Of a stretch of DNA of 64,000 nucleotides, positions 1 through 29,239 are shown piece after piece. The notes beneath the pieces were generated by a model that was not told where the DNA came from, ran no database searches, and was given only the letters and a program-made list of their open reading frames with translations. The position numbers and the translations under genes were made by a program. Every line of letters starts with the position of its first letter. The first letter of the stretch is position 1. The DNA is from a virus: positions 1 through 64,000 of the IMG/VR virus record IMGVR_UViG_3300044691_000338. The stretch is one strand, 5' to 3'.

Positions 1-336
1 CAGCCTCGAGTACCGCACCTGGATATCGGGATCGGTCCAGTCGGCTTTTTCCTTGGCGGCGAAGTCTTTCAGCCCGGTCAGGCGGGTATTGTGGTGCTGA
101 TAGAGACCTCCGGAGGTGCCGCCATCGCCGGTCTTGTTGGCCGCGTTTCCGCCACTCTCCCGCTCCACGTTGTCGGCTTCGCCCTTGACCGCCGCCTCGG
201 TGATGTCCGGATTATATTTGCGGACCAACTTCTCCACATCATCACGAGACAGCTTCTGCGGTCGCACCCTGGTAACCGGCGTCCCCGAGGGACGTTCGCT
301 CTGAAGGCGGTCGGGATCGTAATTGTCGTCTGCCAT
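1..336 (-). CDS. Lysozyme-like virion protein, N-terminal part (runs off left edge)
   Basis: The first 112 residues of a gene whose 3' end is outside the window. Its ATG overlaps the TGA of the upstream gene by one base (TGATG), so it belongs to the ejection-protein operon. Residues 53-64 (ADNVERESGGNA) and 70-82 (GDGGTSGGLYQHH) match the region around the catalytic Glu (here Glu60) in phage tail lysozyme and transglycosylase domains. In short-tailed phages such proteins are ejected with the DNA to open the peptidoglycan. The family call rests on motif recognition. The rest of the protein cannot be seen. Confidence 0.6.
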   Translation of the reverse strand, partial: MADDNYDPDRLQSERPSGTPVTRVRPQKLSRDDVEKLVRKYNPDITEAAVKGEADNVERESGGNAANKTGDGGTSGGLYQHHNTRLTGLKDFAAKEKADWTDPDIQVRYSRL

Positions 337-3300
337 CAGTCACCTTCCAACGAAATGATCGGGCGGCGTTTTGTGATCGCCTCGATGGTCCCGGCACCAC
401 TCGTCCCAGTGGGGATGAAGTACCTCGTATCGTAAGTCCCGGGGATTCGCTCACGGAAGACCCCGGCGGCCTCCAGTTCCGCTGTGTGGCTGTAGAGGTC
501 AGTTCCGGTCAGTTCGAGGCGCCACTCCTGGGCCACGCGACGGCGCTTGATGGTCCAGCCGTTCGCCATGTTCGCGACGCCGCCGTCCATGATTCGGGCC
601 ACGACGTCAGCCGGCTTGATGTTGAGTTTTACCCCTTCGGCGCCCAACCGCTCCAAGGTCTGGTTGATCACCTTGTTGTCGACCACCCGCCCGAGAAGCC
701 TCTCACCGCCATCGGTCTGAAGCCGGAAAATCTTTGGCTGACCTGCCAAACGGTCCCAGATCGGCAGGATCGCGCCCGTGATGATGTGCAAATCGGCCTC
801 ACGGAACTCAGGCGTTTTGGCGACACGCTCATCCCATAATTTCTTGGCTTCAGCGTTGTCCTTGACTGTCGTTAATGTGTCTCCCAGCGCGGCGGACAAC
901 TCCTCCTCTGGGATGTAGCGCCAGTCGATCGGGGTCACGATACGATAATGCTCGGTGACCTGCCCGTTCGCCTCGACCTTGGCATAGGTCGTGGGAACGA
1001 CGGCGGAGATCATGCCGCTGCGTTTGTTCTGGATGAAATACTGCGGTGCGCTCCAGCCCGATCTGGCCGATTGACCGGACATGACTTCCTCAAAAGACGA
1101 CGGATAGTTTCGGTTGTGCGTCATTAGGTGGACGTGCCGCGTCTCCGCGCCAGAGTTCGGATCGGTGTAGACCACCTGATCGGAGACCTTAACGATCTTG
1201 TCCGCTTTGTACGTCTCGGTTCCCGCATCGAGTGTGCCCGCCGCCGCAGCACGATCCACGATGTCACGGAAGCGCGTGGCGAACTCGTTGAACACCCGAT
1301 TCTGGTCGTCCACCTTCAGACTGAGCACCCGGTTGAGGAATTGCGTCATCGGCGGGAGTTCGTCCTTCAACGAGCCGTCCGCGTTCGCAATGAAAAGGCC
1401 CATCTGTTCCGCCAGGTCATCCTGGGTGAAGCCCTCGACCCGGCCGCCGTGGATATCGCGGAACAACTGCACCAGTCCGGCTTTCGCCTCGTCGCTTTCC
1501 AGGTTGTCCTGAAGGCCAAACATACCCTGATCGCCGGTGCGCCGTTCGCCCTTGGTCAACGCGCCCAACTGCCCCAGGCGGCGGGCGATCGACGAGATGA
1601 ACCGCTTCTGCCCTTCCAGGTCGGTCGTCACGAGATGGAAGATCGGCGCCGTCCATTGATTGGTCCGATGCGTGCGGCCGAAGCCCTGCACCGCGGTATC
1701 CGCGCGCCACCCGGCCTGCACCAGATAGTGAGATCGGCGCGCGCCGTTGCCGCCGATGCCAAGGCGTCCGGTGTCATCCACGCGATCGGCCGTCTTGTCG
1801 TCGTGATAACTGCGCCCGGTGCCTCCCGCCTGCGAAAAGATCAGGATCTTTTTCTTTCCGCTCTGAAATGAATTGGCTTCGGCCACGTTGACGTCCGCGC
1901 CGCGTTTCTCCAAGGTCTTCTTCATGCGCCCGGTTTCGTCGGCCTTGTTCACCACCCGCTGCTTGCGGCCGGTGACCTCGGCCACGGCTTCGGGCCCGTA
2001 GTGGTTGACCAGGATTTCCAGCGGACCGTCGGGTACCCGGAGTGAGCCAAGGTCCAGCATCAACTTGTCTCTGGCCGCGATCCCATCCGGGTTGTGGACG
2101 GGATTTCCCTCGGAATCAGACACGGGACGCACCCGCTCGTTCCCCTCATCGTCGACATAGCTTTCATACTGCCGCGTCGGATAGGCCTTCTCGACCAACT
2201 GCAAGAGTTGATCACGCGGCGACATATCGAGTTCTTCCAGGTCTTCGTCACCGCGGGCTTTGCTCTTATCGAGCGCGCGTTCCTGGCCGGCTTCGTTAGT
2301 GTTGACCAGTTGCAGCACCGCCTGACGGCCTTCGGCGATGTCCTTGTCGATACCCTGGATGACGCTCGGCATCTGGAGCGACGTGATCAACTGGTTGAAA
2401 AACCGCTGATGCCCACCCCAGAACGCGGACAGGATGGCCGACTTCGGACCGCCCTTGCCGTCGGCCCCGGTGTCCTCCAACGCCTGCATCATGTTTCGCA
2501 GGACGAGTTGCCACGCATCGGCGATCTTGTCGTACATGATCCGCTGCGGCGGGGTCAGGTCGTGCTGCACGCGGTCATATTCAACGCCGTCGTAGGACAG
2601 GCTGCGCGCGGTGTAATAGCCCAGCGCCTTCATGTCGCGGGCCACGAGTTCCATCGCCGCCACCCCACCGGATGATACACGGGACAGGAAGTCGCTCCGG
2701 TTGGCGAAGGCGGTCCCCGGCCCCCACAAGCCGAGGCGATCGGCATAGGCCAGATTGCTGACCTCGGTGGCGCCGGTGGCCGATACATAGACCACACGGG
2801 CATTCGGCAGAGCGTTTTGCAGTTCAAGACCGGCCAGAGCTTTCGCCGCCGCTTCCTTCTTGCCGCGCGTTCCCGTTCCCCCGGTCACGTTCGCCATGTT
2901 GTGGGCTTCATCGAAGGCGATCACGCCGTCGAAGTCCTTGCCGAGCCAATCGACGATCTGCTGCACACGGGTTTTTGGTTCTGCGCCGGCCAACGCAATA
3001 TCTTTGACCGGAATGTAATACTCCATGGTCTTGCCGTACTTGTCATCGGCGGCCTCAACGGAAACAAGCCACGTTTTGCCATCCGAATTTAGGCTCTTAA
3101 GTGTCGCTTTGACGGTTCTGTTCTTGTCCTTGACGACGACTTGCGCCCCTGGCGTAAGACCTTCACCACCGCCGCCAAACTTCTCCCCCGACTTCACCGT
3201 GTCGTAAGTCGTGAACAGGATCCCGTCGTGCTTGATCTCGTCCCCGGCCTTGATCTTGTTGTGCGGGAGAATTTCGTTTTTGTCTTGTCCGACCCAGGCC

Positions 3301-6300
3301 CAGTCACGCTTGGCATCGTTCGACAGCGCCATTTTCTCGGAGACCCAGAGCGCCTTTTTGCGACCCCGCCATTTATTATCGAGGATGATGCCCGCAACGG
3401 TAGCGCCCTTTCCTACGCCGGTCCCGTCGCCGATGAAAAAGCCGCGGCGCTTGGCTACGCCGTCCTGGTCCTTTTCCAGCATCTGCGTGTGCGCGTTGCC
3501 GGCATAGGTGATCGTCTCCAACTGCGCGGAGGACAGAGCGCCACTTTCAATAAGGCTTTTGGGGATATTCGGCCTGTAAGTGACCAACGGCGGCAGGACT
3601 GACGCCATTGCAGCGGACTGCACCAGTGGGCTCGGATGCGGCTGCGCGCCTTCGATCGTGACCCGTTGCGGCTTGTAAGCCTCGTAGACACTCTCGGTGA
3701 GTTCTCCGCCAGTCTGATCCTCCGGAACGACGATGCTGGTTTCCAGAAGTTCCGGCGCGGGTGGCGTTACGGCGAGGTCGCTACCATCAGGTCGTAGATG
3801 ACTTGTATCACCGCCTGTGCCGCTCCCTCCGGAGACGTCGCTCGCGATAGGCTGTTGCTCAGGTTGTCCATTTCCTCCTTGTGGGAGAGGTTTGGGTTGC
3901 TGAACAGTCGGCGCATCGCCTGATAGGACTGGTCCTTGCCCCACACGTCCGCCAGGCCGAACGCCACCTGCTTTACCGCCTCCGGTGTTGGCTGGCTTGG
4001 GGCGATTGGCTGCGGCAGGTCGATCTTGTTTTCCTCCAGGCCCCACGTCGCCAGTTGGAGAACGTACGGCTTGTCCGGGTGCGGTGTCTCCTTGGCCTTC
4101 TGGAGCCACTGGAGCGCCGCCTGGTTGATCGGCCACTGGTTGATCGGCACTTCCTGGGCGGGCATCGCGCACTCCTTGCAGCGCATCCAACAGTTCGGCT
4201 GACGTAATGGCGGTGGTCACCACGGGTGGCTGGTCGCTCGGCGGAACCTTGTCGATCACCAAAAGACGGGTCGGAAAGGTCGTGCCGTATTTGCGGTAGA
4301 TTTCACCACCGACACCGATATTGGCACGAACATCATACTCCGCGCCAATTTTCTTCCACCAGTCGCGGAAGGTGGCGCCAGTGGCGTTGTTTCGGCCTTT
4401 CTTGCCGGCGGTCTCCGCACCCTCTGGCTTCATGCCATCGCCGACAATCGCCACCAGGCGACCACCGGGTTCCAACCGTTTCAGCGCCTGCTCGATGTGC
4501 ACGGCACCAGTCTCGATCACCATTTTGCCGCCCATGCGATCGCCCGCGCTGGAGAATGGCGGGTTCATCACCACGGCGGTCGGCTTGATGTCCCGCGGCA
4601 GGATGTTGTGCAGTTGCTCCGCGTTTTCCTTCGTGATCTGGCTGAATGGCAGGGTTTCCATCATCGTCCGACGCATCGGCGAGATTTCGTTGCCGATGAC
4701 CTTGGCGCCAGCATTCATCGCATGGACGGCGATGCCGCCGGTGCCCGCCGAGGGCTCGATCACGACTTCACCGGGTTTTAGGTTCGCGACCCATGCGACG
4801 GCGAAAGCATAATCCGGCGGCGTGCTGAACTGCTGGAGCTTCTCCTTGTCGCCAGCGCGCACTGTCTGCGTCGGGATACGATCCTTCAGCGTGGCCAGTT
4901 CAGCGGCAACCGCCTTCGCGGCTTCGAGGTCTCCGGTTGGCGCGAACCGCTCGGGATGGCGCGCGATGAAAGTGTTCACGCCCAGTTCGATCGCGTCATA
5001 CAGGCGATCCCGCTTCAGGATGCCATTGGCCAGTGTTCCCCCGAAGATGCCTTCGGCCGCCTGCATCAATCCCTTGGCGCCGATGACGTGGTTCGGATCG
5101 TCGAGGCTGTTGGCCAGGATGTCGGCGAACGCGGCATCCGGGTTCACCAGTTCGCCACTGTCTGGGTCGTATCCAGGCAATGCGGTGCGGTTCTTCTTCG
5201 CTTGCTGTTCGGCGACGTCGAGCGAGGACGGGATCGGCTTCGTGGGTTCGGCTTCCGCCGGTTCCTCGGCCTTCGGCGCTTCCGCTGAAGCCGGTCCCCA
5301 CAATTCGGGTTGAGATCTCCAGATTTCGCGGCGCATGCCGGGAGACAACTGCTCCCATTGATCTTGTGTCATGTGCAGAGGCGGACCGGGAGGAGTTGGC
5401 GCTTGGTATGACCAGAATGATTTTGGTGTTGGCGGTCGCTCGCTTGGTGGCAGAATTACTGGTTCTGCTTCCGTGTCCGGTTTCGCCGCCTCATCCGTTG
5501 TCGAGGAATCGGAAGACGGGGGTGTGGAGTCTGGGTGCGCCTCGGCCGGGATCGGGACGGATTCGGTCCCTTTTTGGTCCACTTCCGGTCCAGTTTCGGT
5601 CGCGGGCGCCACGACCTGGAATTGCGGGTCCTTCTCGCCAGGCGGCGGCACGGACATCGCCATGCCCTGCGGTGTCGGTTTCAGGCGGACCGCCTCGACG
5701 GTGCGGATGCCATCGACCAGCGTCGAATGCACGCCTTGTGGGTTGGCGTAGACATCCTGGCCGTCCGCGTTCTTGCCCAGGAGAGACCAGTCCGCTTTCG
5801 GCTTTTCGGCTGTTTCCGGTGCCTTCGGAATATTTTCGGGAATATTTTTCGCTGCTTTTGGTGCTGGTTTCGGCTTTGCCGCTGGCTCCGCCCAGGGTTC
5901 ATCCGTCGTCAGGTGCTGCCGTTTCCGATTCCCCGGGTTCTTCGGCACCAGGCCTTTGTCGGTCTCCTTGGTTGCCTCAGTCCACGGCACGCCGTTGTCC
6001 ATGATGGCGCGGACACCGTTCGGGTTCTCGAACACATCCTCGCCGAGGTGGTTCTGCTTGCCCGTCGGTGTCCACGGCCCGCCGTGCGCCTCGATCGGCG
6101 CGACGTTCTGAGCAACTACAGGCTCGTTTTGAGTAACTTCAGCACTGGTGCGCGGGGGTTGCGCAGGTGTGCGATCTGGTGACGGGGCTTCTGGCGATGG
6201 TGCAGGTGTTGAGGCCGGTAATTCAGTTTCCGGCCTGTTTCCGGCCTCGGGTTGAGTTTCCGGCCTCGTCTCGGTCTGCGCCTGCGCGATCGGTGTTTCC

Positions 6301-7343
6301 TGGTCGGGTTCACCGAGCGGCGCGACTGCCACGGGCGCCCATGGATCGGCTGGCTTCTGCTGTTCCTGGGCCGCGTTTTCCGCAGCGGCACGCTTACCAG
6401 CTTCGACCGCGCCAACACCATCGCGGGCCTGCACCTGCGAACTCGTGATGCGCGTCGGCTTCTGTTCCTCAGCCGCGGCGGGCACCGCGAGCCGGGCCAT
6501 GACGCCCATCACGGACTTCATCCAGCCTTGCTGATCGGCCGGATCATTCGTTGTCGGGCGCGGCACCTCCCGGTTGGCCTGCTGGAACAGCGCCTCGAAC
6601 TGCTCATCCGACAGGTCAGGGAAGCCGGCGCGGAGGTCGGCCGGGTTCACGGGTCCGGTTGGTGGTGCTTCGGCGGTCGTCGGTGCCGGTGGCTCACTGG
6701 GCGGCGGCGGCTCGCCCGTCTTGACCTGAACCTGCCTTACCGTGCCATCGGCCTGCGGGACGGCAACGGTCTCGGTTTCCACCGCTGGCGCTGGAACTGG
6801 TTCGGCCGGAGGGGCGCCTGGTCGCGGAGCCTCCCCCATCGTGACGCCGCCAAGGTTTACCGTTCCCGTGGTCTCGGGAGCTGTCTTTGGAGCGGCCGGC
6901 GCTGGCGCGGCGTCCAGAGTGAACCCGGTCGGTGGCGCTGGCGCACCAGGAACGGCTGGCTCGACGCGTGGAGCGGCGGCGGCACTCGGGCGCTCGGCCG
7001 ATGTGAACTTCGATGGCCGCACACCAAGCGAGGCTTCTTCCAGTGCCTCGACACCAGTGGGCAATGGACGTTCGCCTAACGCCTGTTGACCGCCGCGCTG
7101 CGCCACCCGGATCGGCCCAGTGAGCAAATGGGCGAGTCCTGGCTCGGGCTCCAATGCCCTGATTTCTTCCTCGCCTTTCCGGATTTGCTCGCGGGCCTGA
7201 CGCATCTGCGCGCCGGTGTAGGGAACATCCCATGGAAGACCGTCGGGCGCGGGTTTCGTTCTGGCATCCAGCGTAAAGCCAGGCGGGGGCGGCGGGGCGC
7301 GATCCAGCGTGAACCCCGGCGGCGGCGTGATATTTCCGCTCAT
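336..7343 (-). CDS. Giant DarB-like ejection protein: N6-adenine methyltransferase fused to a Strawberry-notch/SF2 helicase
   Basis: 2335 residues. Residues 1 to about 780 are Pro/Ala/Glu-rich and look disordered. They hold PPGFTLD repeats and two related modules (GEDVFENPNGVR, GQDVYANPQGVH). Residues about 830-1010 form an adenine methyltransferase with motif I EPSAGTGG and catalytic NPPF near residue 927. A helicase follows, with Walker A GDGTGVGKG near 1306, DEAH in FDEAHN near 1476 and motif VI QGFGRTHRTNQ near 1885, the Strawberry-notch-like pattern. P1 DarB has the same methylase plus helicase plan and is packaged to protect incoming DNA from restriction. The position among ejection genes and the ATGA coupling upstream suggest the same job here. 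The biochemical role is inferred. Confidence 0.85.
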   Translation of the reverse strand: MSGNITPPPGFTLDRAPPPPPGFTLDARTKPAPDGLPWDVPYTGAQMRQAREQIRKGEEEIRALEPEPGLAHLLTGPIRVAQRGGQQALGERPLPTGVEALEEASLGVRPSKFTSAERPSAAAAPRVEPAVPGAPAPPTGFTLDAAPAPAAPKTAPETTGTVNLGGVTMGEAPRPGAPPAEPVPAPAVETETVAVPQADGTVRQVQVKTGEPPPPSEPPAPTTAEAPPTGPVNPADLRAGFPDLSDEQFEALFQQANREVPRPTTNDPADQQGWMKSVMGVMARLAVPAAAEEQKPTRITSSQVQARDGVGAVEAGKRAAAENAAQEQQKPADPWAPVAVAPLGEPDQETPIAQAQTETRPETQPEAGNRPETELPASTPAPSPEAPSPDRTPAQPPRTSAEVTQNEPVVAQNVAPIEAHGGPWTPTGKQNHLGEDVFENPNGVRAIMDNGVPWTEATKETDKGLVPKNPGNRKRQHLTTDEPWAEPAAKPKPAPKAAKNIPENIPKAPETAEKPKADWSLLGKNADGQDVYANPQGVHSTLVDGIRTVEAVRLKPTPQGMAMSVPPPGEKDPQFQVVAPATETGPEVDQKGTESVPIPAEAHPDSTPPSSDSSTTDEAAKPDTEAEPVILPPSERPPTPKSFWSYQAPTPPGPPLHMTQDQWEQLSPGMRREIWRSQPELWGPASAEAPKAEEPAEAEPTKPIPSSLDVAEQQAKKNRTALPGYDPDSGELVNPDAAFADILANSLDDPNHVIGAKGLMQAAEGIFGGTLANGILKRDRLYDAIELGVNTFIARHPERFAPTGDLEAAKAVAAELATLKDRIPTQTVRAGDKEKLQQFSTPPDYAFAVAWVANLKPGEVVIEPSAGTGGIAVHAMNAGAKVIGNEISPMRRTMMETLPFSQITKENAEQLHNILPRDIKPTAVVMNPPFSSAGDRMGGKMVIETGAVHIEQALKRLEPGGRLVAIVGDGMKPEGAETAGKKGRNNATGATFRDWWKKIGAEYDVRANIGVGGEIYRKYGTTFPTRLLVIDKVPPSDQPPVVTTAITSAELLDALQGVRDARPGSADQPVADQPGGAPVAPEGQGDTAPGQAVRSPTGDVGPGGKQDRPAAANRPKPANTGGGKAGGVRPGGRVGQGPVLSGDAPTVQQPKPLPQGGNGQPEQQPIASDVSGGSGTGGDTSHLRPDGSDLAVTPPAPELLETSIVVPEDQTGGELTESVYEAYKPQRVTIEGAQPHPSPLVQSAAMASVLPPLVTYRPNIPKSLIESGALSSAQLETITYAGNAHTQMLEKDQDGVAKRRGFFIGDGTGVGKGATVAGIILDNKWRGRKKALWVSEKMALSNDAKRDWAWVGQDKNEILPHNKIKAGDEIKHDGILFTTYDTVKSGEKFGGGGEGLTPGAQVVVKDKNRTVKATLKSLNSDGKTWLVSVEAADDKYGKTMEYYIPVKDIALAGAEPKTRVQQIVDWLGKDFDGVIAFDEAHNMANVTGGTGTRGKKEAAAKALAGLELQNALPNARVVYVSATGATEVSNLAYADRLGLWGPGTAFANRSDFLSRVSSGGVAAMELVARDMKALGYYTARSLSYDGVEYDRVQHDLTPPQRIMYDKIADAWQLVLRNMMQALEDTGADGKGGPKSAILSAFWGGHQRFFNQLITSLQMPSVIQGIDKDIAEGRQAVLQLVNTNEAGQERALDKSKARGDEDLEELDMSPRDQLLQLVEKAYPTRQYESYVDDEGNERVRPVSDSEGNPVHNPDGIAARDKLMLDLGSLRVPDGPLEILVNHYGPEAVAEVTGRKQRVVNKADETGRMKKTLEKRGADVNVAEANSFQSGKKKILIFSQAGGTGRSYHDDKTADRVDDTGRLGIGGNGARRSHYLVQAGWRADTAVQGFGRTHRTNQWTAPIFHLVTTDLEGQKRFISSIARRLGQLGALTKGERRTGDQGMFGLQDNLESDEAKAGLVQLFRDIHGGRVEGFTQDDLAEQMGLFIANADGSLKDELPPMTQFLNRVLSLKVDDQNRVFNEFATRFRDIVDRAAAAGTLDAGTETYKADKIVKVSDQVVYTDPNSGAETRHVHLMTHNRNYPSSFEEVMSGQSARSGWSAPQYFIQNKRSGMISAVVPTTYAKVEANGQVTEHYRIVTPIDWRYIPEEELSAALGDTLTTVKDNAEAKKLWDERVAKTPEFREADLHIITGAILPIWDRLAGQPKIFRLQTDGGERLLGRVVDNKVINQTLERLGAEGVKLNIKPADVVARIMDGGVANMANGWTIKRRRVAQEWRLELTGTDLYSHTAELEAAGVFRERIPGTYDTRYFIPTGTSGAGTIEAITKRRPIISLEGD

Positions 7344-9946
7344 GGCTTGTATGGCGTGCCGTCAGGATTGATCCACGCCTGACCATCCCAGTAGATTTTC
7401 TTTCCGCCCGTTCCAGTGGCGGATTGCATGGTCTCGATATTTGGCTTGGCGGCTTCACGTGGAGTCGGCGTGGTCGGTTGGGTTGGCGCGGGTGTGCCCG
7501 TCGGCTGTTGCGCTGGAGCAGGTGTTTGTTGCGTCAGCGCCGGGGTTGGTTGCGCTGCTGCCGGCGCTGCGGGCGCCACCTTGAGATACTGTTGCGCCGA
7601 CCCGGCGGGCAGATTGAAATGCTTCTCGAACGCCGCCGCCGTCTCTGGGCGCTTCTTGAGGATATCAATCCCCTGTTGCAGTTCCGGCGAAATCGCGCCT
7701 TGGCCTTGCGTGGGTTGGCTTTGGTGCGCGCGATCGACTGGCGATGGCACCTGATCAACGGGCGATGTCCGAGACTTGCCAGTCAGAGCCTTATAAAGGT
7801 TGTCGCGGACCTCCGGGACCGCGCTACGTGCCCCGTTCATCTCCTGGTTCAACTGATCCAGGGCCGTTTTGATCTGTCCGTTCGACCAGGCCTTATCGAT
7901 GACCTCATCAGCCCGGCGCCGTGAATCATCCGTGGGCATGCCACCGCGGGTCAGGATCTGGGTGTACGCCATCTTGTAGGCGTTCAGTGAATCGATTAGG
8001 CGAATGACCGCTTCGCCTCCGGTACCTTTCTCCGCCGCGAGCAACAGAGAATTGACCGTGGGAAATTTCGTCCGGTCGACCATATCGGAGGCGCGAAGAA
8101 CCATCGGCGCGAACTTGCCCGCTTCCGCGATGCCCAGATCGATGCCGGCGCCTCGAGTACCAAGCACACGTTCGGCGGCCAGGATGCCCATGAACTCGGC
8201 GGTGTTCGCCGCCAGGTCGGCACCAGACAGACCCTGCTCCTTGGCCAGTTTGCCACGCCATTCGGCGATCTTGCGCATGCTGGCCTGATTGCGGCCCATG
8301 CCGACGGTGCCATGCCAGTCCCCGCGGAGGCTTTCCTCTGCGATCAGTTTGGCCGAGTCGTCATCGATCGCGTTCGCGTCCTGCTTGCGCGCGGTCTCCT
8401 GGATCTTGGGATCAGCCCGCGCGATCTGCCGTTGTTCGGCGCGTTCCGCCTGATCGAGCGGGGTGCCGCGTTGTGTCTCCATGGCCGCGATGCGCTTGTC
8501 AGCGATGGACATAGCGTCTTCTTCGGCGGCCTGCCCGGGTGTCTTGCTCCCTTCGGCGCGGGTGACCCCGAGGACTTTCCCCTCCATGGGCGTGCCATCG
8601 AGATTGAAATAGTGTCCGTCGTGAAACAGTGCGTCCTGCCGCACGCCGTTGACGGTCACTGGCATCGGTTTGCCGGCGGCCTGTTGCGCCGCGACCCGCG
8701 CGCCCGTGGTCGCCCCCGCCCGATCGGCGGCGCGCTTGTCCTCGGCCGCGAGCGTGCGACGGTCCAGTTCCGCCTTTTCGTTGGGATCAGCCAGATTTAC
8801 GGGCCGACCTAATTCCTTCTCATAGTCGGACCGTACAACATTGGTCACCGCGTCCCGGTCCTGATTGGCCGCGCTGGGCGCGCGCGGACCGGCGAGTTTC
8901 GTCGAGTGACCCTTTGGCGCGTAGGGCTCGCCATTCATGTCCAGGCTTTCGCCCGTACCCTTGCGATGCTGATAGTCGTTGCCTTCGGCGTCAGTCAGAA
9001 TTTCCCAACCCTTGGTTGGATCCTGAAGGGTTTTGTTGGTCGCCCCGGCGACCTGACGCATCCGCTCAAGTTTGACCTGATTTTCCCCCCAGTCCGAATG
9101 GTCTTTGCGGATCCCCGCTTCGATCGCGGCGTTGTCTGCGTCCTTCTGCGCACCTGCGCCGGTACCTACCTTCGTGAAGCCGCCCTCTTCTTCCGGAGGA
9201 ACGGACGAGCCATCACCGTACTGCAACCGCTTTCCAGGTTCCGCATTCGGGAAGGCAAATATGAGCCTTCCCTTTGAATCCTTGCCGATGGCGGCGCCCG
9301 CACGGCGGTTAGTGTCTTCGTCGCGCTTCTCCTGCCGTTTAATCCTCTCTTCCTCAATTCCTCGCTGCTTTTCCTTATCGCGCTCGGTTTCCCACTGCTG
9401 ATAGGTCTGCACATGCCCGGCCGCTTGGACAGGATCGAACTGGCGCGGCCAACTTTTCTGCTGTTCCTCAGAAAATCCGCCACCTTTCGCAAGACGCTCC
9501 TGTCCCTCCGTCTGAGCCTGCTGGCCGATGGCGCGCGCTGCCTGTTCGTCCTTACCGTCCGCGAGGGCCTGTTTGTATGCCGTGTAGGCTTCGTTCGAGA
9601 CATCCTTGGTCAGTTCGTACTGCTTGGCGAACGTGTCCGTCTTGTATCGGTCCATCTGCAGCTTGTGTTGCTGCATCTCCAATGTGTTCTGCTGCAATTT
9701 CATCCCGGCCGCTGGATCGACGCCCATCACCCTGGACAGCGTGTCCGGCTTTGGAGCCCCCGTGGCAGGGTCGATCGCGTCCGGTGCGCCGAGGATGTCG
9801 CGCAATTTGTTGGCGCGCTCCACCTGCTGCTTGAACTGTTGCAGTTGAACAAGATTGTTCGCGTCCGAAATCGCCTTGCCGAAGTTTGGTCCGACGTTCG
9901 GTGTCGGCTGAAAACTCAAGGGGATTTGGGCATTGACGCCGGACAT
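7340..9946 (-). CDS. Probable ejection (internal virion) protein, 868 aa
   Basis: A large Gln/Glu/Lys-rich protein with long stretches typical of helix and coiled coil at about residues 90-260, and a Pro/Thr/Gln-rich linker near residues 790-840. The C-terminus is a short WDGQAWINPDGTPYKP motif. No enzymatic motif was recognised. It lies between a DNA-transfer-type protein and the DarB-like protein and overlaps the latter by ATGA. This is where P22-type phages keep gp16/gp20-like ejection proteins. The role comes from context, not homology. Confidence 0.6.
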   Translation of the reverse strand: MSGVNAQIPLSFQPTPNVGPNFGKAISDANNLVQLQQFKQQVERANKLRDILGAPDAIDPATGAPKPDTLSRVMGVDPAAGMKLQQNTLEMQQHKLQMDRYKTDTFAKQYELTKDVSNEAYTAYKQALADGKDEQAARAIGQQAQTEGQERLAKGGGFSEEQQKSWPRQFDPVQAAGHVQTYQQWETERDKEKQRGIEEERIKRQEKRDEDTNRRAGAAIGKDSKGRLIFAFPNAEPGKRLQYGDGSSVPPEEEGGFTKVGTGAGAQKDADNAAIEAGIRKDHSDWGENQVKLERMRQVAGATNKTLQDPTKGWEILTDAEGNDYQHRKGTGESLDMNGEPYAPKGHSTKLAGPRAPSAANQDRDAVTNVVRSDYEKELGRPVNLADPNEKAELDRRTLAAEDKRAADRAGATTGARVAAQQAAGKPMPVTVNGVRQDALFHDGHYFNLDGTPMEGKVLGVTRAEGSKTPGQAAEEDAMSIADKRIAAMETQRGTPLDQAERAEQRQIARADPKIQETARKQDANAIDDDSAKLIAEESLRGDWHGTVGMGRNQASMRKIAEWRGKLAKEQGLSGADLAANTAEFMGILAAERVLGTRGAGIDLGIAEAGKFAPMVLRASDMVDRTKFPTVNSLLLAAEKGTGGEAVIRLIDSLNAYKMAYTQILTRGGMPTDDSRRRADEVIDKAWSNGQIKTALDQLNQEMNGARSAVPEVRDNLYKALTGKSRTSPVDQVPSPVDRAHQSQPTQGQGAISPELQQGIDILKKRPETAAAFEKHFNLPAGSAQQYLKVAPAAPAAAQPTPALTQQTPAPAQQPTGTPAPTQPTTPTPREAAKPNIETMQSATGTGGKKIYWDGQAWINPDGTPYKP

Positions 9947-9951
9947 GCTGT

Positions 9952-10827
9952 TTATCCGATCGGGGTGAAATTATCCGCCTGATAACCCGGCACGGTCGCG
10001 TTCGGATTGGACGCGGACGGGAATGTCCCGTCACCGAATTGAGTGCCGAAGGTGCTGTTCAGGCTGTTCGCGCTGAACGGACCACCTCCGCTGAACAGGT
10101 TCATTCCCCCACCTCCGCCTCCACCGCCCTGCATCTGTGTGAGGATGGCCTGAAGCGCGTTGCTGAAACCGCCGGTCATCGCGTTCGCGCTGCCGACTTG
10201 TCCGGCGGCCAGCGCGTTCCCCGCGCCAATTGTGTTAGCCCCGGCCTGCGCGCCAAAACTCTGACCGAAGCCACCCTGGTTGACCGCGGCGTTCTGGCCC
10301 TGGTTCGCGACACCAGAGAGGTTGCCGATCTGCTGCTGCCAGGCAGACCCAACATTGCCGAGATACTGCTGCCACCCCTGGTTCGCGTTCTGTTGCCCCA
10401 CGCCAAGAAGCGCACGGAGCGCGTTGCCGCCAAGGCCACCGTTCGCCGCGGCGCTGTTGGTGACCGCATCGGTCCCCTGCTGAAGGTTGTACTGATACCC
10501 GGGAGAGGACTGAAACGTCGCCGGATTGATGCTGCCCGTGCCACCGGTACCGCCAGGACCACCAATCCCGAGCATTTGCAGCACCGGGCTGGTCGGCCCT
10601 CCCGCCGAACCGATGCCGAGCATCTTTTGCAGATCACCGAACGCGGCGGTGCCACCATGAAGGAATGGTGACAGGTTTTGGGTGGTCTGATTGTAGATTC
10701 CCCGCTGCATCTCGGTCGCGTTATTCGCGGCGTCAGCCTGGGTTTTGGCCGCTGATTTGGTCGCGTCCGCGCCAATCAGACCTGTCGCGACTGATCCAAC
10801 AACGGATGCGGCTGCTGCCCACGGCAT
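9952..10827 (-). CDS. DNA-transfer / ejection protein, 291 aa
   Basis: The N-terminus (MPWAAAASVVGSVATGLIGA followed by DATKSAAKTQADAANNA) is the Ala/Gly-rich, weakly hydrophobic start shared by many podophage DNA-transfer proteins. The middle and C-terminus are Gly/Asn/Gln-rich, with a run of about eight glycines near residue 245. It is the first gene after the conserved promoter element at 10868-10929, so it heads the ejection-protein transcript. Likely role: a pilot protein leaving the virion with the DNA. Confidence in that is moderate because the sequence is low in complexity. Confidence 0.6.
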   Translation of the reverse strand: MPWAAAASVVGSVATGLIGADATKSAAKTQADAANNATEMQRGIYNQTTQNLSPFLHGGTAAFGDLQKMLGIGSAGGPTSPVLQMLGIGGPGGTGGTGSINPATFQSSPGYQYNLQQGTDAVTNSAAANGGLGGNALRALLGVGQQNANQGWQQYLGNVGSAWQQQIGNLSGVANQGQNAAVNQGGFGQSFGAQAGANTIGAGNALAAGQVGSANAMTGGFSNALQAILTQMQGGGGGGGGMNLFSGGGPFSANSLNSTFGTQFGDGTFPSASNPNATVPGYQADNFTPIG

Positions 10828-13026: not shown

Positions 13027-13502
13027 CAGTCCGGCTTCAGGATCGCGTCATCGACCTTGGCCGCGTCTGTCTCATCGGTCGGATGGATGCAGAACCAAAC
13101 CGCGTCGGTATGAGCAAATAGCGTGTGATGCTCGCCGGCTTTGATCGTTAACGCACGCGGACCAATCATCTGCTGCGATTGGTCGCCCACCTGAAGCGTG
13201 ATCACTCCGCTCGCCAAAATGGAAATATGATCGTAGGGGTGCGCGTGCGAGACCATCCGAAAGCCGGACGGGATATGCAGTTCCTTCGCGTAGACGCCCT
13301 TGGCCTGGTCCTGCCCGACGAAGTGATGGTGGATGTTCGCCGCGGGGAAGACGTCGGCGAAGGGGCGCATAGGTGGAGCTTCATCTTCGCCATATGATGG
13401 TGGCGCACCGGCCGCGCGCATCCTCGAGTACGCCGCCCTTTCTTCGGCGGGCGTCTTGGCGTTCCAATAGGCGGCAGTCGCCTCGTCGAGTTCGATGGTC
13501 AT
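13026..13502 (-). CDS. Cupin-fold protein, 158 aa
   Basis: Residues about 55-150 form a cupin barrel. Motif 1 is SHAHPYDHISILASG and motif 2 is GEHHTLFAHTDAVWFCIH, with the His residues placed to hold a metal. An acidic helical segment precedes it. It lies between an Asp/Asn-hydroxylase-like gene and tail genes and overlaps both by a few bases. A cupin within a virion operon is unusual. It could be a structural barrel or a small modifying enzyme, and the sequence cannot decide. Confidence 0.75.
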   Translation of the reverse strand: MTIELDEATAAYWNAKTPAEERAAYSRMRAAGAPPSYGEDEAPPMRPFADVFPAANIHHHFVGQDQAKGVYAKELHIPSGFRMVSHAHPYDHISILASGVITLQVGDQSQQMIGPRALTIKAGEHHTLFAHTDAVWFCIHPTDETDAAKVDDAILKPD

Positions 13503-14065
13503 ACGTCACCTTCGATTTTACGAAAGCACAATATGAGGACGATCCGCTCCGATTCCCCATCGTTGCGGACGGAGTGCGGGATCAGGTTGTCATGGTGCCA
13601 CCCCTCGCCGGGCTTCCAGACCATGCTCTCGTCTTCAACTGTGTTCACGCACCGGTCGTTGCCGCGGAGGACCACCCAAACCTTGGTCGAATAATATCGA
13701 GCATGCCAGGCCACGTCGTCATCGTGCTCGTACACGCGGCACCCCGGCGGTATCCGGGTCATGAGCACGCCGCCGAACTCCAGCGGCACGTCCAGCGCGT
13801 CCATCACGGTCATCAGCACGTCAGGCAGTGACGGCAGTTGCCGATAGGCGGGCCACCACACGGACTTGTGCGGCTTCTGGGAGAACTCCGGTTCGAGCAT
13901 GGCCTCGGGTGAGGCGTACCGAATCCAGAGGTCGGAAGTTTCTCGATGCGGTGAATTACCGAGGCGCCGCTCTGGTCGATCGTTCCATAGGCTCGGCTGC
14001 GCATCGAGTTCGGCCAGCAACGGCGCGACGTCGATGTCCTTGGCGATCAATTTGAAGTGGCTCAC
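13499..14065 (-). CDS. Asp/Asn beta-hydroxylase-like (2OG-Fe(II)) protein, 188 aa
   Basis: The double-stranded beta-helix signature of the aspartyl/asparaginyl hydroxylase family is visible: an acidic His motif YEHDDDVAWHARYYS near residues 110-124, then GWHHDNLIPHSVRND near 155-169, followed by an Arg. The proposed Fe ligands are the His/Asp of the first motif and the His of HSVRN. Substrate unknown. It overlaps the cupin gene by ATGA and the gp10-C gene upstream, so all three are made together. A virion or host-surface protein is a plausible target (inference). Confidence 0.65.
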   Translation of the reverse strand: MSHFKLIAKDIDVAPLLAELDAQPSLWNDRPERRLGNSPHRETSDLWIRYASPEAMLEPEFSQKPHKSVWWPAYRQLPSLPDVLMTVMDALDVPLEFGGVLMTRIPPGCRVYEHDDDVAWHARYYSTKVWVVLRGNDRCVNTVEDESMVWKPGEGWHHDNLIPHSVRNDGESERIVLILCFRKIEGDV

Positions 14066-15795
14066 GAGACGTCAACCTCCGCGTCGATCAGAGCGATTTT
14101 GAACGGATCTGTGCTGCTCAACTCGAATATACGATCCGAGCCGCTGAACCGCGATGTCGCTCCAAGCCGGTTCGCCTTGATGGTGAACGCGGTCTCTCCA
14201 GACCGCCCGACCGGCAGCATGCGATAGTTCGACCAAACATGCCCGCCATCGTCCGACCAGCGCAGCATCACCTGCGGGTTCGTCCCCTGCGGCACGCCGG
14301 CGCCGGTTTGCATCTTGATCGCGAGATAGCTGTAGCGATCGGCCGCGACCGTGGTGGCGGGCAGCGCGCGCCAACGCCTGATCCATTTCCGCGGCGTCCC
14401 ATTGTCCAGATATGTGGCCGGATTGAACCCGTAGAGGTTCCCGCTGCGATAATCACCGAGCACGCCTTGCCCCGGCCCGCGCGTGCTCCCGCTGGTGACT
14501 GACCCGGAGGTCCCCGGGGGATCGGTCGCGCCATGGACCAGAGAGCCGCCGCTCTCCGCGAAGGGACCGCCGCGGCCGTTGTTGAGCGCGAAACTGGCTG
14601 GCGCACCGGTATTGGTCAGGAACACCACGGGAGAGACGCCAAACGGGAGTTCGCCATTGACCCCGAGGTTTTGCGCGCCTCCCGTGGCCGAGATGAATTT
14701 CCGGCGATTGGCGGCCTGGGTCAGATCGACAAAGGCCCCGGTGTTCGAGAACCACAACTCGGCCATGGTGGCGGAAACGACAGGGCCAACCGGGATCCAA
14801 TAGACCGCGTGACCCGTGAACTGAGAATTCCCGACGGGTCTGGTGCCATCAGACGAAATCGCCTGTACGCTGGGAATTGTATCGCCGGAGAGCGGAGGCA
14901 AGTCCTCGAATCCCGTCGCCAGTGTCCAATGCCATGCCTGCCCTGCGCCGACTGATGATCCACGGCCGACCAGATGAAGCCCATCAGCCGATATACCATC
15001 GGCACTGCTGATCGTTTGGGAAAACGGGTTAGCCAATAACGCGGTCGTGCCGCTTGAGTTTACAAAAATTCTACCAGACCCACTAATCTCCATACCCCCG
15101 GCTATGACGGTGCCCGCGCTAGAAACCGAAAATGCCTGGCCCGTTGTTGCGCCGCCGGTAAATGGGATAGCGACCGCGGGACCGGCGGATGTCCACATGA
15201 CAGGGGTATCCACTCCAAGTCCGCTGCTCACCCCGACGATCACATTGCCATCGGCGGACACCGCCAGAGCAGTGCCGCTCTCATCTCCCGACAGAATACC
15301 GAGCTGCACCATTCCGCCACCCGAAGTCCAAACAAACGGAAATTCAAAAACCGGCCCAGGCGGCCCACCGATAAGGTATCCTGGCATGTTGCTGGACGTG
15401 CCGACGATCGTCGTGCCATCCGCCGATATCGCGTTGGCCTGTGAAGCCTGCCCGGTCCCGAGAAAGCCCAGGCCAACCATGCCGCCGCCCGAGGTCCAGC
15501 GGAACGCTTCGCTGGTGGCGAGCCCAGCTCCATCCGGCAGTGATCCGCCGCCGTCACTTCTGCCGACAACGATGGTGCCGTCATCGGAAACCCCGGCTGC
15601 TTGCGATGTTGTGCCGGATGCCAGGAGACCGAGCGATGTGAATGTCGCACCAGTCCAACGAAACGCGATCGGGGAACCGCTGCCATCGAAATCCGCTGAC
15701 CCGACGATGACCGTTCCATCAGCCGAGGCGGCGAACGCCACGCTGAATAGACCGCTGGGGGGAACCCCCATATCGACCGCGACCCAGACCGTCAT
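14062..15795 (-). CDS. HAF-repeat protein carrying the C-terminal part of P22 gp10-like stabilisation protein, 577 aa
   Basis: The ATG at 15795 was chosen because it overlaps the upstream TGA as ATGA; a TTG 21 bases upstream is the alternative. Residues about 10-290 hold seven repeats of the form (V/I)SADGT-x-IVG, the HAF/beta-propeller type. The last 130 residues contain LGDYRSGNLYGFNPATYLDNG, cut here to GDYRSGNLYGF, and MLRWSDDGGHVWSNYR, then RIFELSSTDPFKIALIDA. These match the C-terminus of P22 gp10-type packaged-DNA stabilisation (tail hub) proteins. The N-terminal gp10 half is in the gene just upstream. Confidence 0.65.
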   Translation of the reverse strand: MTVWVAVDMGVPPSGLFSVAFAASADGTVIVGSADFDGSGSPIAFRWTGATFTSLGLLASGTTSQAAGVSDDGTIVVGRSDGGGSLPDGAGLATSEAFRWTSGGGMVGLGFLGTGQASQANAISADGTTIVGTSSNMPGYLIGGPPGPVFEFPFVWTSGGGMVQLGILSGDESGTALAVSADGNVIVGVSSGLGVDTPVMWTSAGPAVAIPFTGGATTGQAFSVSSAGTVIAGGMEISGSGRIFVNSSGTTALLANPFSQTISSADGISADGLHLVGRGSSVGAGQAWHWTLATGFEDLPPLSGDTIPSVQAISSDGTRPVGNSQFTGHAVYWIPVGPVVSATMAELWFSNTGAFVDLTQAANRRKFISATGGAQNLGVNGELPFGVSPVVFLTNTGAPASFALNNGRGGPFAESGGSLVHGATDPPGTSGSVTSGSTRGPGQGVLGDYRSGNLYGFNPATYLDNGTPRKWIRRWRALPATTVAADRYSYLAIKMQTGAGVPQGTNPQVMLRWSDDGGHVWSNYRMLPVGRSGETAFTIKANRLGATSRFSGSDRIFELSSTDPFKIALIDAEVDVS

Positions 15796-18368
15796 GGGAC
15801 AGTGCTCACATGCCAAGGTTGGGTGAAGGACGGCGCGATCGGGTTGGTCGAACTCCAGGAGATAGCCGTCGGCGTCAGCAAGGTTTCCACCAAAGACCCA
15901 GCGACGATCGTATTGGCGTAAACCTGCAATTGCTGCGTCGTCGTGTCGATCGAGATCAGCAGGTTCACCCAGGCCGCCCAGTTGGTGAAAGCATAACCCG
16001 CGCCAACGATGGGCGCGTTGCTCATATCGAACGCGGCAATGGAGAGTTGCGGCGTGCCGAGGGTATCGTTCTCAATCTTGATGAGCAGACCAGGATTGGT
16101 TGACCCCAACGTGTCATCGGTCTGGTTCGAGAAATAGATGCCAGAACCGTCGGCGTCCGGAAGATCGACCCAGATGGACAGCAGCGCCGTCGAGACAGCG
16201 GAAGGCAAGCCCGTGAGCCCGGTCCCGGTTTGCAGCACCTCTGGTGAGGTGATCGTCACCGATTTCGGGTCATACGCGGAGAACGTGGTCGACGGCTGGG
16301 CCGAGAGTTTGAACGGGGTAAAGAAATTGCCCCAGTGCCGTTTGATCTGCCCGTTATCGAGCGCGCCAAGCCGCGTCCAGATGGGGAAACCGGCCAGTTT
16401 TGAGGACGTCTTGTCGTACTGCCACGTCTTGTCCGCCTCTGGGAAGGTGATCACGTAATAGACGTGCTGGCCTTCCTGCCGCGCGTAGGCGATCGCATCG
16501 CCGAGATTGGGATACTTCTGAAATTCCGCCACCAGCGCCTGGGTGGAAATCGGCACCGCGGAATACCCGCTCGCCTTCACAACGATCCCTTCCCCTTGGT
16601 CGTTGCGGGACAGCCAGATCAGTTCCTCTTCAGCGAGCGCCACGGAAAACGGCGCGATGCAACCGGATTCGATGTGGTTGCTGGAAAGAGGACCGAAGGG
16701 AAAATTCGGAAGCCCCTGATCATTCCAGATTTCCGTGTTTTTTTCCTTGATGATGTAGACCTCATCATGGATCACACCGAGGGTGACGCAGTTGTCCGGC
16801 GATTGGTTGGCCACCCCGAAATTGAGCGGTTGCCAGGTCGAGAGGTCCTCCTGGTCCGAGGACGCGATATTCTGCGAGTTCAGGAAGACGAGGACGCCGA
16901 ATCCGTCAACGACACCGCCCATGACGGGATTCGGAAACGGCATGTCGATCGGCACCAGACCGACGAAAGCGCCATATGTCGGCGAGGTCAGCGTGAAGCC
17001 CGCTCCGGATCCCGTGGTCGATTTCTGGGTGAACGAGATCGCCGGGTCGGAAATTGCCCCCGGAGAGGTGATCGTGAACCCGGTCACACTCCCTGTCGGG
17101 CCAACCCGGTTCACCAGATAGGTCGCATTGACGCCGCCACCTGTGATGAAACCGGCCACGCCAACGACATAGCCATGGCCACCGGTATGCACCGCGAAGC
17201 CCGAGATAGGTCCGGCGGCGGCGATATCGACGGTGAACCCGGTCCCGACATTGGTGGCGATTCCTGGCGCCGCTTTCGTCGTCGCCGCGGCGGTGATCGC
17301 GTAGGCCGTGCCGCGGTTGAGCAGAATGAATCCGGTGACGACTCCACCCCCAACGGAGGTCACCCGATAGACGGCATCCTGACTGCCGACCGTGATCAGG
17401 CCGGTGTCATTGGCCGCGTAATTGGTGCCGCCGGAAGTAATTGAAGCGGCGGTGATTTCTCCCGCGACCGCCGTGATGTTGATCGTCAGGCCGCTTCCGC
17501 CGCCGGGATGCGGCTGAATGTTCGTCGTCGCGACGTTGCTCGCCGTCGAATACCCAGTGCCCGCGTTGGGCAGGATGAAGTCAGTCACCGGGTTGTTCGC
17601 GACAGCGGTGACCGTCGCCACCGGAAAGGCGCTCTGAAAGCCAGAGGACGCCTTCAGGAGAATGGTGTCGTTGACCGCGTACAGGCCGCCAGCGGGATTT
17701 ACGGTACCGATCACCGGCCCGACCACGCCACCAGTGAGAGGCAATCCGCCCGGCACCAGCCATGCCCCCACGCCATCGACGATCAGCAGTTGCTTCTTGT
17801 TCTGGAACATCGAAACCGGCGTTGTCTCGTCACCGATCGTCCCGCAGAGGGTATGAATGCCGTTCGCGGTGATGCTGATTACCTCGGGGCCGGATACGAC
17901 GTAGAGAACGTCGTTCAGTGGCAGACCGCCGCGGCCAGGACCAAGAAAATCATATGTCGGCGATGTCAGGATAAACCCGGTCCCGGTCCCTGTCGTCGAG
18001 AATTGGGTGAAACCAGAAGGTATGCCGGACGAGTCGCCTGGATCGATGATATCGAACCCGGTCACAGCCGAACCGGTCAGCGTGGTCACTCTGACCCGAG
18101 GGGCACCGAAGTTCCCGCCCTCAATCGGGATCAGCACAATTACATCACCGAAAGCATATCCGGTCCCGCCTGATCCGACCGCGCCTCCGATCAGCCCGAC
18201 ACGGCCAACCTGATCAAGCAAATCGAGGCCGGACGCGCCGAACAGAAAGCCGGGAACGATGCCGTCGCGGGTCTCGATCACCTCAACGCAGAGGTTGAGC
18301 GCGTCTGAATCTCCAGCGTCGCTTGAATTTTGTGTGGCAAATCCACCTAAAATTGGCGACTTCGCCAT
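15792..18368 (-). CDS. P22 gp10-like packaged-DNA stabilisation protein, N-terminal part with inserted beta repeats, 858 aa
   Basis: The gp10-like backbone is seen at residues 1-55, 155-207 and 471-700 (DLSTWQPLNFGVANQSPDN, EVYIIKEKNTEIW, then FPFGPLSSNHIESGC). Two blocks interrupt it, at about 56-154 and 208-470. They are made of Gly/Thr-rich repeats with the core NDTGLITV-x(4)-AVYRVTSV-x-GG-x-VTGF. Residues 700-858 look like a LamG/concanavalin fold. The usual gp10 C-terminus is missing and is encoded by the next gene (ATGA coupling). Likely role: plugs the portal and connects head to tail. Confidence 0.75.
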   Translation of the reverse strand: MAKSPILGGFATQNSSDAGDSDALNLCVEVIETRDGIVPGFLFGASGLDLLDQVGRVGLIGGAVGSGGTGYAFGDVIVLIPIEGGNFGAPRVRVTTLTGSAVTGFDIIDPGDSSGIPSGFTQFSTTGTGTGFILTSPTYDFLGPGRGGLPLNDVLYVVSGPEVISITANGIHTLCGTIGDETTPVSMFQNKKQLLIVDGVGAWLVPGGLPLTGGVVGPVIGTVNPAGGLYAVNDTILLKASSGFQSAFPVATVTAVANNPVTDFILPNAGTGYSTASNVATTNIQPHPGGGSGLTINITAVAGEITAASITSGGTNYAANDTGLITVGSQDAVYRVTSVGGGVVTGFILLNRGTAYAITAAATTKAAPGIATNVGTGFTVDIAAAGPISGFAVHTGGHGYVVGVAGFITGGGVNATYLVNRVGPTGSVTGFTITSPGAISDPAISFTQKSTTGSGAGFTLTSPTYGAFVGLVPIDMPFPNPVMGGVVDGFGVLVFLNSQNIASSDQEDLSTWQPLNFGVANQSPDNCVTLGVIHDEVYIIKEKNTEIWNDQGLPNFPFGPLSSNHIESGCIAPFSVALAEEELIWLSRNDQGEGIVVKASGYSAVPISTQALVAEFQKYPNLGDAIAYARQEGQHVYYVITFPEADKTWQYDKTSSKLAGFPIWTRLGALDNGQIKRHWGNFFTPFKLSAQPSTTFSAYDPKSVTITSPEVLQTGTGLTGLPSAVSTALLSIWVDLPDADGSGIYFSNQTDDTLGSTNPGLLIKIENDTLGTPQLSIAAFDMSNAPIVGAGYAFTNWAAWVNLLISIDTTTQQLQVYANTIVAGSLVETLLTPTAISWSSTNPIAPSFTQPWHVSTVP

Positions 18369-19327
18369 TAAGCCACCTCTCTACGCCGCACAGGTGGACG
18401 CCTGTTGTTTGCTTGCTGTTTGGCGTCAGCCCAGATGCAATTCTTCGGCGAGTACCCCAGATCGTTGTTCATTCTTTCCAAGGACAATCCTTGTCGAGGA
18501 CGTATTCCCATGTCCTCGATAAAGTTACGATAGCTGGTCCAGCGAGGACAGACCGTGATCCCGCGACCGGCGTATCCTGGGAACAAAGCCTTATTCTTCG
18601 GATCACACCTCCGGATCATCCCCTTCCACACATGGTACTCGAGTGGCTTCAGATTGAGTTTCCATAGAGGGAGCGTCGTTTGCCCGGCGAACAGCGCGGT
18701 CTTTTTACAGCCACATGACTTAGTCAACCCCTCCCGCAAGGCCGTGCCCGAAACTACCCGTTCCACCCCACAATCACATTGGCATTTCCAAAAAGGTCCG
18801 CCTTTTTTGGGCGCCGAACGATCCAGCGAAATCGCGAACCAATATCCAAACCTACGACCACTTAGGTCGATACGTGTTCGGGTTCCTGTATTTTCGTACT
18901 GTCGACAACCGCAATTAGTCGATAAGCCCCTGACCAATGAACTGCAAACAACAGGCGTTTCAGTTCCGCAATCACAGCGGCATAGCCATCTCGCCTTCTG
19001 ATGTGCGCTCACTGTCGAACGGCCCATGACAAGCCACATACCGAACCGTTTTCCGATAAGGTTAGCCCGTTTTTCTCTAAGTGTTTCGTGGACCCTACAA
19101 CCACATGATTTCGATTTTCCGCTCATAAGAGAGGTCGTGAGGACCACTCGTTCAGCACCGCAGTCGCACCGACACAGGAACCTTCCTGTCGGCCGATACT
19201 CAATGACAGTCCATTTATCGAACTTTTCCCCCGTGTGATCGATCCAAGAAGGATGCATGTGATTCCACCCCATAAAAGAGGGGAAATTCTTAACTGAATC
19301 TATCGAAAAGTCAAGGGTTTCCGCCAT
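18368..19327 (-). CDS. Homing-endonuclease-like protein: three zinc-finger repeats plus HNH-type C-terminus, 319 aa
   Basis: Three copies of a Cys4 repeat (CRCDCGAERVV to SCGC; CRCDCGTETPVV to NCGC; CQCDCGVERVV to SCGC) are followed by a C-terminal module: VWKGMIRRCDPKN, YAGRGITVCPRW, then LERMNNDLGYSPKNCIWA. That module is the common phage HNH-like free-standing endonuclease. The finger repeats probably read DNA. By eye the gene is clearly more AT-rich than its neighbours. It sits between the gp4-like and gp10-like genes, its TAA overlapping the next ATG. It looks like a selfish insertion. Confidence 0.7.
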   Translation of the reverse strand: MAETLDFSIDSVKNFPSFMGWNHMHPSWIDHTGEKFDKWTVIEYRPTGRFLCRCDCGAERVVLTTSLMSGKSKSCGCRVHETLREKRANLIGKRFGMWLVMGRSTVSAHQKARWLCRCDCGTETPVVCSSLVRGLSTNCGCRQYENTGTRTRIDLSGRRFGYWFAISLDRSAPKKGGPFWKCQCDCGVERVVSGTALREGLTKSCGCKKTALFAGQTTLPLWKLNLKPLEYHVWKGMIRRCDPKNKALFPGYAGRGITVCPRWTSYRNFIEDMGIRPRQGLSLERMNNDLGYSPKNCIWADAKQQANNRRPPVRRREVA

Positions 19328-26517: not shown

Positions 26518-26901
26518 TCAGTGAACTCCTGTTGAGATCGGCGTCATCGGGTAGGCTTCGGCCTTCGTCCAATCGCGCCGCTGGCCTGTCGTGATTTGCT
26601 TGTTGATGTCCGCCACAACCTGGCGGATGGCGCCCTCGCCCATCATTGGACCAAGCGGGACCAGCACATTCGCGTCCCTGTCATGGACCATGACCTGCCA
26701 GAGTTGGTCCTCTTCCTTCGCGGGAGTCATCCGCTCCAGGATCGCCCCTGGGATCGGTGCGCCGTTCGATTCCTGCTGCATCTGAGAGCGGAGGACTTCC
26801 GAGTAGGCAGCTTGGTCCGCCCGACGTCCAAGTTCGCCGACAAATTGGCTCTTCGGTCGATGGAGGGCCTGCTCAAACCGGCGCTGTGCTCGGTTGCTCA
26901 T
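26518..26901 (-). CDS. Protein after the endonuclease VII-like gene, 127 aa, unknown function
   Basis: The start MSNRAQRRFEQALHRP at 26901 overlaps the upstream stop (ATGA). A longer frame adds 15 residues inside the previous gene. Gln/Arg-rich helix first, then a small alpha/beta part (DQLWQVMVHDRDANVLVPLG). Ends one base before the start of the three-repeat gene. Confidence 0.6.
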   Translation of the reverse strand: MSNRAQRRFEQALHRPKSQFVGELGRRADQAAYSEVLRSQMQQESNGAPIPGAILERMTPAKEEDQLWQVMVHDRDANVLVPLGPMMGEGAIRQVVADINKQITTGQRRDWTKAEAYPMTPISTGVH

Positions 26902-29087: not shown

Positions 29088-29239
29088 GGTATTTAAGCTC
29101 CCATCATAGGAGTGTTGCCGCACGACCTGCGACGGGTGTAGATTTCTGGGTGACGGGCTAGATCGACGGATCGAAGACCCTGAGCTCCCGCAGTGGGCCG
29201 CCCGTCACTTCTCTTGCGGGAAAGAAACGGGAGCATTCC

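Follow-up and report, generated by a model that had tools for sequence, protein, structure and literature searches.

Genomic setting of the locus

The DNA analyzed here, referred to below as the window, spans positions 1–64000 of the 71,852-base IMG/VR record IMGVR_UViG_3300044691_000338, and close to its left end lies a gene whose 2335-residue product joins an adenine methyltransferase to a helicase of the Strawberry-notch (Sno) type (Table 1). The open reading frame reported in the initial annotation is real, running stop-free from its ATG for 2335 codons on the minus strand from 7343 to 336. All of the named virion genes lie on this same strand, and the short-tailed, P22-type setting that had been proposed for the gene is confirmed by them: the portal and coat proteins are 36–42% identical to podovirus proteins described as 'P22-like portal' and 'P22 coat', and head-closure and DNA-ejection families are present alongside.

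The suggestion that the gene sits among those for ejection proteins is also borne out, as it is the third member of an ejection run in which it follows a P22 gp7-like gene and a gene coding for an 868-residue protein. The latter has no match in PHROG, Pfam or cultured phages, and has a homologue (42% identity) in an 88-kb record of a related uncultured phage, L003. The gene order of L003 is conserved, with head closure, Asp/Asn hydroxylase, ejection protein, the 868-residue homologue, the methylase–helicase gene (hereafter, the dyad) and lysozyme in succession, and the two dyads share 77% identity. The tail lysozyme, truncated here, has an 885-residue homologue in L003. We considered whether the lysozyme gene could be the detached C-terminal part of the giant relatives described below, and rejected this because the L003 homologue matches none of those giants.

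Several other features of the structural region are worth recording. Two overlapping reading frames divide the head-closure family Hc3 (phrog_578) between them, with its positions 149–332 matching an 858-residue ORF and positions 342–470 an overlapping 584-residue ORF, the second of which also bears HAF repeats; the same division is seen in the L003 relative (G001), and could reflect either splitting of the gene or programmed frameshifting. HNH or endonuclease VII-type genes, possibly homing endonucleases, are located among the structural genes (18368–19327 and 26898–27761, minus strand), and an aspartyl/asparaginyl beta-hydroxylase-like gene (13499–14065, minus strand), with homologues in L003 and a second related record, L016, is situated between the head-closure and cupin/tail-adhesin genes.

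Table 1. Coordinates of the dyad gene, its parts and the neighboring virion genes in the window
Feature	Coordinates	Strand	Details
Phage tail lysozyme, start only	1–336	minus	PF18013; runs off record end; TGATG overlap with dyad stop
Whole polyvalent methylase–Sno-translocase gene	336–7343	minus	2335 aa; ATG start; 0 internal stops
Sno-type SF2 dsDNA translocase	339–3728	minus	residues 1206–2335; AAA_34, Helicase_C_4, C-terminal domain
Pro/Gly-rich linker, methyltransferase to helicase	3729–4163	minus	residues 1061–1205; second Pro-rich stretch, about 1062–1213
Helical cap and gamma-class adenine methyltransferase	4164–5141	minus	residues ~735–1060; motif I EPSAGTGG; NPPF 927–930
N-terminal arm	5232–7343	minus	residues 1–704; Pro/Ala-rich, mostly disorder-prone composition
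Conserved ~45-aa module, copy 2	5652–5801	minus	residues 515–564
Conserved ~45-aa module, copy 1	5940–6077	minus	residues 423–468
868-aa protein, second in ejection run	7340–9946	minus	upstream of dyad; 4-base overlap (ATGA)
291-aa DNA-ejection protein, P22 gp7-like	9952–10827	minus	phrog_598; homologues VvAW1 gp03 and in L003
Head-closure Hc2/Hc3, two overlapping ORFs	14062–15816; 15792–18368	minus	
Two tandem head-tail adaptor paralogues (Ad3-like)	19330–20067; 20067–21029	minus	phrog_12985
Major coat protein, P22 type	27903–29123	minus	phrog_283
Scaffolding protein	30275–31498	minus	
P22-like portal protein	31990–34395	minus	phrog_156

Architecture of the 2335-residue protein

The union of an adenine methyltransferase (recognized by its NPPF motif) and a Sno-like helicase in one polypeptide, as first proposed from the sequence, is upheld: NPPF begins at residue 927, and the C-terminal part scores well above the Pfam cut-offs for AAA_34 (373 bits; cut-off 27) and Helicase_C_4 (258 bits; cut-off 30.5), which are the two halves of Sno helicases. 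The SF2 ATPase is fused at the C-terminus of the methyltransferase, and both a TP motif and NPP(Y/F) are present. The methylase has no Pfam name, and is matched by PHROG DNA-methyltransferase families and by a defense-associated methylase model (PADLOC mad2, E 1e-16). Its AlphaFold2 model (mean pLDDT 88.6), in which the helical cap occupies residues ~735–821, resembles class I SAM methyltransferases, with the DNA m6A methyltransferase PacII among the PDB matches.

The helicase carries a Walker A motif (GTGVGKG) at residue 1307 and DEAH at residue 1478. A sequence search found no solved structure of a Sno helicase, and the PDB matches to the AlphaFold2 model of this region (mean pLDDT 81) include the SWI2/SNF2 double-stranded DNA translocases CHD1, ISWI, CSB and RapA; on the strength of this modeled likeness, the Sno module is more likely to be a motor that tracks along DNA than one that separates its strands. 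Among eight aligned phage and plasmid homologues, the key positions of motif I (EPSAG), NPPF, Walker A and DE.H do not vary, and they are invariant or nearly so in larger alignments (38 and 32 sequences), with QFSTPP and NPPF conserved across the 38 sequences aligned. Both catalytic centers look intact. Pfam searches reveal no LPD36 domain ahead of the methyltransferase (at E <= 0.01) and no LPD, MPTase or ART domains in the protein, which ends directly after the dyad.

The N-terminal region had been described as about 780 disordered residues, and this is only partly correct. It is indeed Pro-rich (17% Pro) and mostly disorder-prone in composition, but it is shorter, at about 704 residues, with the conserved core beginning at residue 705 and the helical cap at about 735, and it is not wholly disordered, since it contains two copies of a conserved module of about 45 residues. 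An HMM built from the window and L003 copies shows that this module is also present twice in L003, the closest relative, and occurs in ten other phage dyads. A separate (P)PGFTLD-like motif is found three times in the arm, at residues 8, 20 and 138.

Long arms of this kind are a feature of phage dyads. Where the gene is complete, arms of at least 300 residues (median 1165) are seen in 60 of 63 phage dyads, compared with just one of 68 dyads from bacterial genomes, although this contrast derives from few independent events and is suggestive only, a tree-based test of independence having yielded just three pairs and no significance. A Pro-rich arm with small modules along it, in the manner of beads on a string, probably serves packaging, threading through the tail, or both.

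Relationship to P1 DarB and distribution of relatives

Phage P1 is a myovirus, and virion-borne antirestriction is known for it. The initial annotation called the window protein DarB-like, and the overall plan is indeed shared, with an N-terminal adenine methyltransferase carrying an NPP(Y/F)-like motif and a C-terminal SF2 motor in each; a close kinship is nevertheless not supported. The DarB helicase is of the SNF2 type (PF00176/PF00271: SNF2-rel_dom, Helicase_C) whereas that of the window is AAA_34 plus Helicase_C_4, the DarB motif is NVPF rather than NPPF, and DarB is without a long arm. BLASTP of P1 DarB against the window protein gives no match at 1e-3, and profile comparison yields a weak match for the methyltransferase (49%, E 1.7e-4) and little for the helicase (8%). 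We therefore reject orthology on the grounds of the different helicase class and the lack of BLAST similarity, and the most fitting label for the protein is that of a phage "polyvalent" methylase–helicase dyad. Because its helicase falls outside the DarB branch, the tested function of DarB is not simply transferable to it. DarB also works with the partners DarA, Hdf, DdrB and Ulx, and tblastn of the whole 71,852-bp record finds no homologues of DarA, DdrA, DdrB, Hdf or Ulx; companion Dar homologues are not reported for the JC1 group of podoviruses either (PMC9144972). P1 DarB is located in the capsid, to which its first 30 N-terminal residues are sufficient for targeting (PMC9024508).

Searches of 50,697 catalogued phage records give no match for the Sno helicase part and 120 for the methylase part, the latter with identities reaching about 34% at most and with coverage of about 11% of the protein or less. 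The plasmid search gave 649 matching records, the best of which are 37–47% identical over the whole methyltransferase–Sno core, in an alignment that starts near residue 754 and reaches the C-terminus. Relatives are also encoded in 378 candidate stretches of viral contigs, of which 80 were kept, and these viral proteins are mostly giants, reaching 6,655 residues. The closest complete relatives are Sno dyads encoded by uncultured phages or carried on plasmids; outside phages, the nearest homologues are on bacterial plasmids. In a FastTree phylogeny the window protein groups with those of L003, L016, L017 and L018 within a phage-dominated half, opposite which stands a clade of dyads of about 1450 residues, mostly alphaproteobacterial.

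A P22-like portal gene is present in 30 of the 50 virus records with Sno dyads, on the same strand as the dyad in all 30, and in 26 of these it lies 13.5–34 kb upstream of the dyad; the positions in the remaining four could reflect circular permutation of the record. A P22-type coat protein was found in only 3 of the 50, so that even among phages with a P22-like portal a P22-type capsid is not the rule; the head-closure family was found in 5. Among 140 genes upstream of dyads, most lack annotation in a PHROG scan, and the five matches to 'internal virion protein' and five to 'virion structural protein' are suggestive only.

In some relatives the dyad is fused to other polyvalent domains: ArdC-N and MPTase-PolyVal accompany it on a Methylomonas plasmid, and giant phage proteins carry LPD1, ART-PolyVal and LPD38. 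A domain resembling P1 DdrB (29–31% identity) occurs in the same polypeptide as a Sno dyad in three records (L130:12-12788, L072:3839-20065 and L092:2945-19780), and to judge from these similarities the fusions link a component of the P1 Dar system to the Sno branch. The Methylomonas plasmid (L011:11809-21519) encodes a 3236-residue Sno dyad with ArdC-N and a metallopeptidase, directly after genes for TraD and topoisomerase III in an RP4-like transfer operon, in a slot that we take to correspond to the position of the transferred primase TraC in the RP4 gene order.

Proposed role and alternatives

We think it probable that the dyad is a late polyvalent effector that is packaged, ejected and protects the phage DNA in cis from host restriction. 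Made late, together with the capsid genes of this P22-type podovirus, it would be taken up into the head and would leave it along with the DNA and the remaining ejection proteins. After delivery into a new cell, the Sno motor would track along the incoming double-stranded DNA while the gamma-class methyltransferase, acting in cis, would N6-methylate adenines or block sites, so that the phage DNA would be shielded from the restriction systems of the host before phage gene expression begins.

This role is favored by the intact motifs and the m6A-methyltransferase-like and SWI2/SNF2-like models, by the overlaps of the gene with one of the ejection run and with that for the tail lysozyme, and by the recurrence of the setting, with a DarB-like gene in the same slot of Vibrio phage VvAW1 and a P22-like portal in 30 of 50 dyad records. 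It is also favored by the presence of a DarB-like protein in JC1 virions (PMC9144972) and of DarB in the P1 capsid (PMC9024508), by the fusion of relatives to entry-phase domains (ArdC-N, MPTase-PolyVal, LPD38, ART-PolyVal and DdrB-like), and by the long arms of the phage dyads (60/63 against 1/68). It is weakened by the lack of companion Dar homologues in the record, by the non-DarB helicase, and by the few events underlying the arm contrast. Packaging and ejection were already proposed in the initial annotation, and by analogy this is supported both by the VvAW1 arrangement and by JC1 gp69, a DarB-like protein for which mass spectrometry of CsCl-purified virions recovered 51 unique peptides (PMC9144972). 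The accompanying concern, that such a protein must pass through a narrow tail, is a real one with a precedent in phage N4, whose virion RNA polymerase of about 3500 residues is proposed to traverse a channel of about 35 Å as a string of small refolding subdomains (PMC12633501).

A late enzyme could alternatively stay unpackaged in the infected cell, methylating progeny DNA before it is packaged so that the virions bring modified DNA to the next host. Position in a late operon fits this as well, and the armless plasmid dyads of about 1450 residues presumably act inside the cell; however, the long arms and accessory modules of the phage forms are absent from the dyads of bacterial genomes, the gene is flanked by an ejection-run gene on one side and the tail-lysozyme gene on the other, and virions of the podovirus JC1 contain its DarB-like protein (PMC9144972), such that we regard intracellular action of this kind as unlikely. 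Somewhat less likely again is that the protein is ejected chiefly as a DNA-entry motor, with the Sno translocase helping to pull in the genome, as transcription by the N4 polymerase may, and the methylase being an accessory. The SWI2/SNF2-type double-stranded DNA translocase fold, the third place in the ejection run and the adjoining tail lysozyme would all suit such a motor, but the corresponding slot of PBR31, a P22-type relative, holds a protein of just 557 residues, the same dyad is found on conjugative plasmids whose DNA is moved by a type IV secretion system, and the full conservation of the methyltransferase motifs argues that methylation is under selection. An ejected counter-defense or competition effector might instead have a target other than classical restriction; for example, it could give the phage DNA a self mark toward methylation-sensing systems (BREX and DISARM among them), or it could work on resident elements. 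This would accord with the PADLOC mad2 match and with the additional effector domains of relatives, an ADP-ribosyltransferase being one, but is the least probable of the three given that the precedent of P1 DarB and the fusions to ArdC-N and DdrB-like domains point to restriction.

If the dyad is indeed packaged and ejected, then two different motor branches, SNF2 in DarB and Sno here, would each have been joined to an adenine methylase for co-delivery with DNA, by virions and probably also by conjugation. A broader proposal, which we hold only tentatively, is that the Sno dyads may represent a separate and widespread class of ejected podovirus entry effectors, distinct from DarB, in which a core shared with plasmid proteins has acquired N-terminal arms, long and modular, for packaging and threading. 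The window protein, with its compact 2335 residues and its lysozyme on a separate gene, is well suited to the study of how two enzymes are packaged, pass through a short tail and refold, and offers a test case for whether methylation of entering DNA needs a translocase.

Comparison with known systems

The general phenomenon is already known, and giant DarB-like proteins of podoviruses have been annotated before. A close parallel in organization is gp01 of the P22-type podovirus VvAW1 (NC_020488), a 'DarB-like antirestriction' protein that occupies the same slot, separated by a single gene from a DNA-ejection gene upstream, has its methyltransferase ahead of its helicase, and belongs to a phage with a P22-type coat; it differs in its length of 3640 residues, in its SNF2/ResIII-type helicase and C-terminal LPD38 domain, and in its Eco57I-type methyltransferase, which is closer to that of P1 DarB. 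The VvAW1 genome paper lists gp01 as a DNA methylase (PMC3558961). The podoviruses JC1 (Bcep22-like), Parlo, ZX1 and PA8 likewise encode large methyltransferase-containing DarB-like or methylase proteins after their late structural genes, but these are giants of 3764–4515 residues whose helicase is not of the full Sno type; the Parlo giant has a transglycosylase fused at its N-terminus, and the helicase is placed ahead of the methyltransferase in both Parlo and ZX1. The plasmid dyads of alphaproteobacteria and methanotrophs share the methyltransferase–Sno core (38–47% identity), but are mostly of about 1450 residues, have no N-terminal arm and lack a virion context.

Iyer et al. (2017) introduced 'polyvalent proteins' for those delivered with DNA by phages and by conjugation, and named the methylase–helicase dyad, with DarB as its archetype and a few Sno-type cases that include an example from Methylomonas (PMC5512222). 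The window protein resembles these Sno-type dyads in combining a gamma-class adenine methyltransferase and a Sno SF2 ATPase in one polypeptide, encoded by phages or conjugative elements beside virion or transfer genes, and differs from the named Methylomonas example in residing in a P22-type podovirus. What is new here is a dyad of the Sno branch in such a podovirus, with the long arm typical of phage forms, and the recognition that such dyads occur commonly among uncultured phages whose portal is P22-like.
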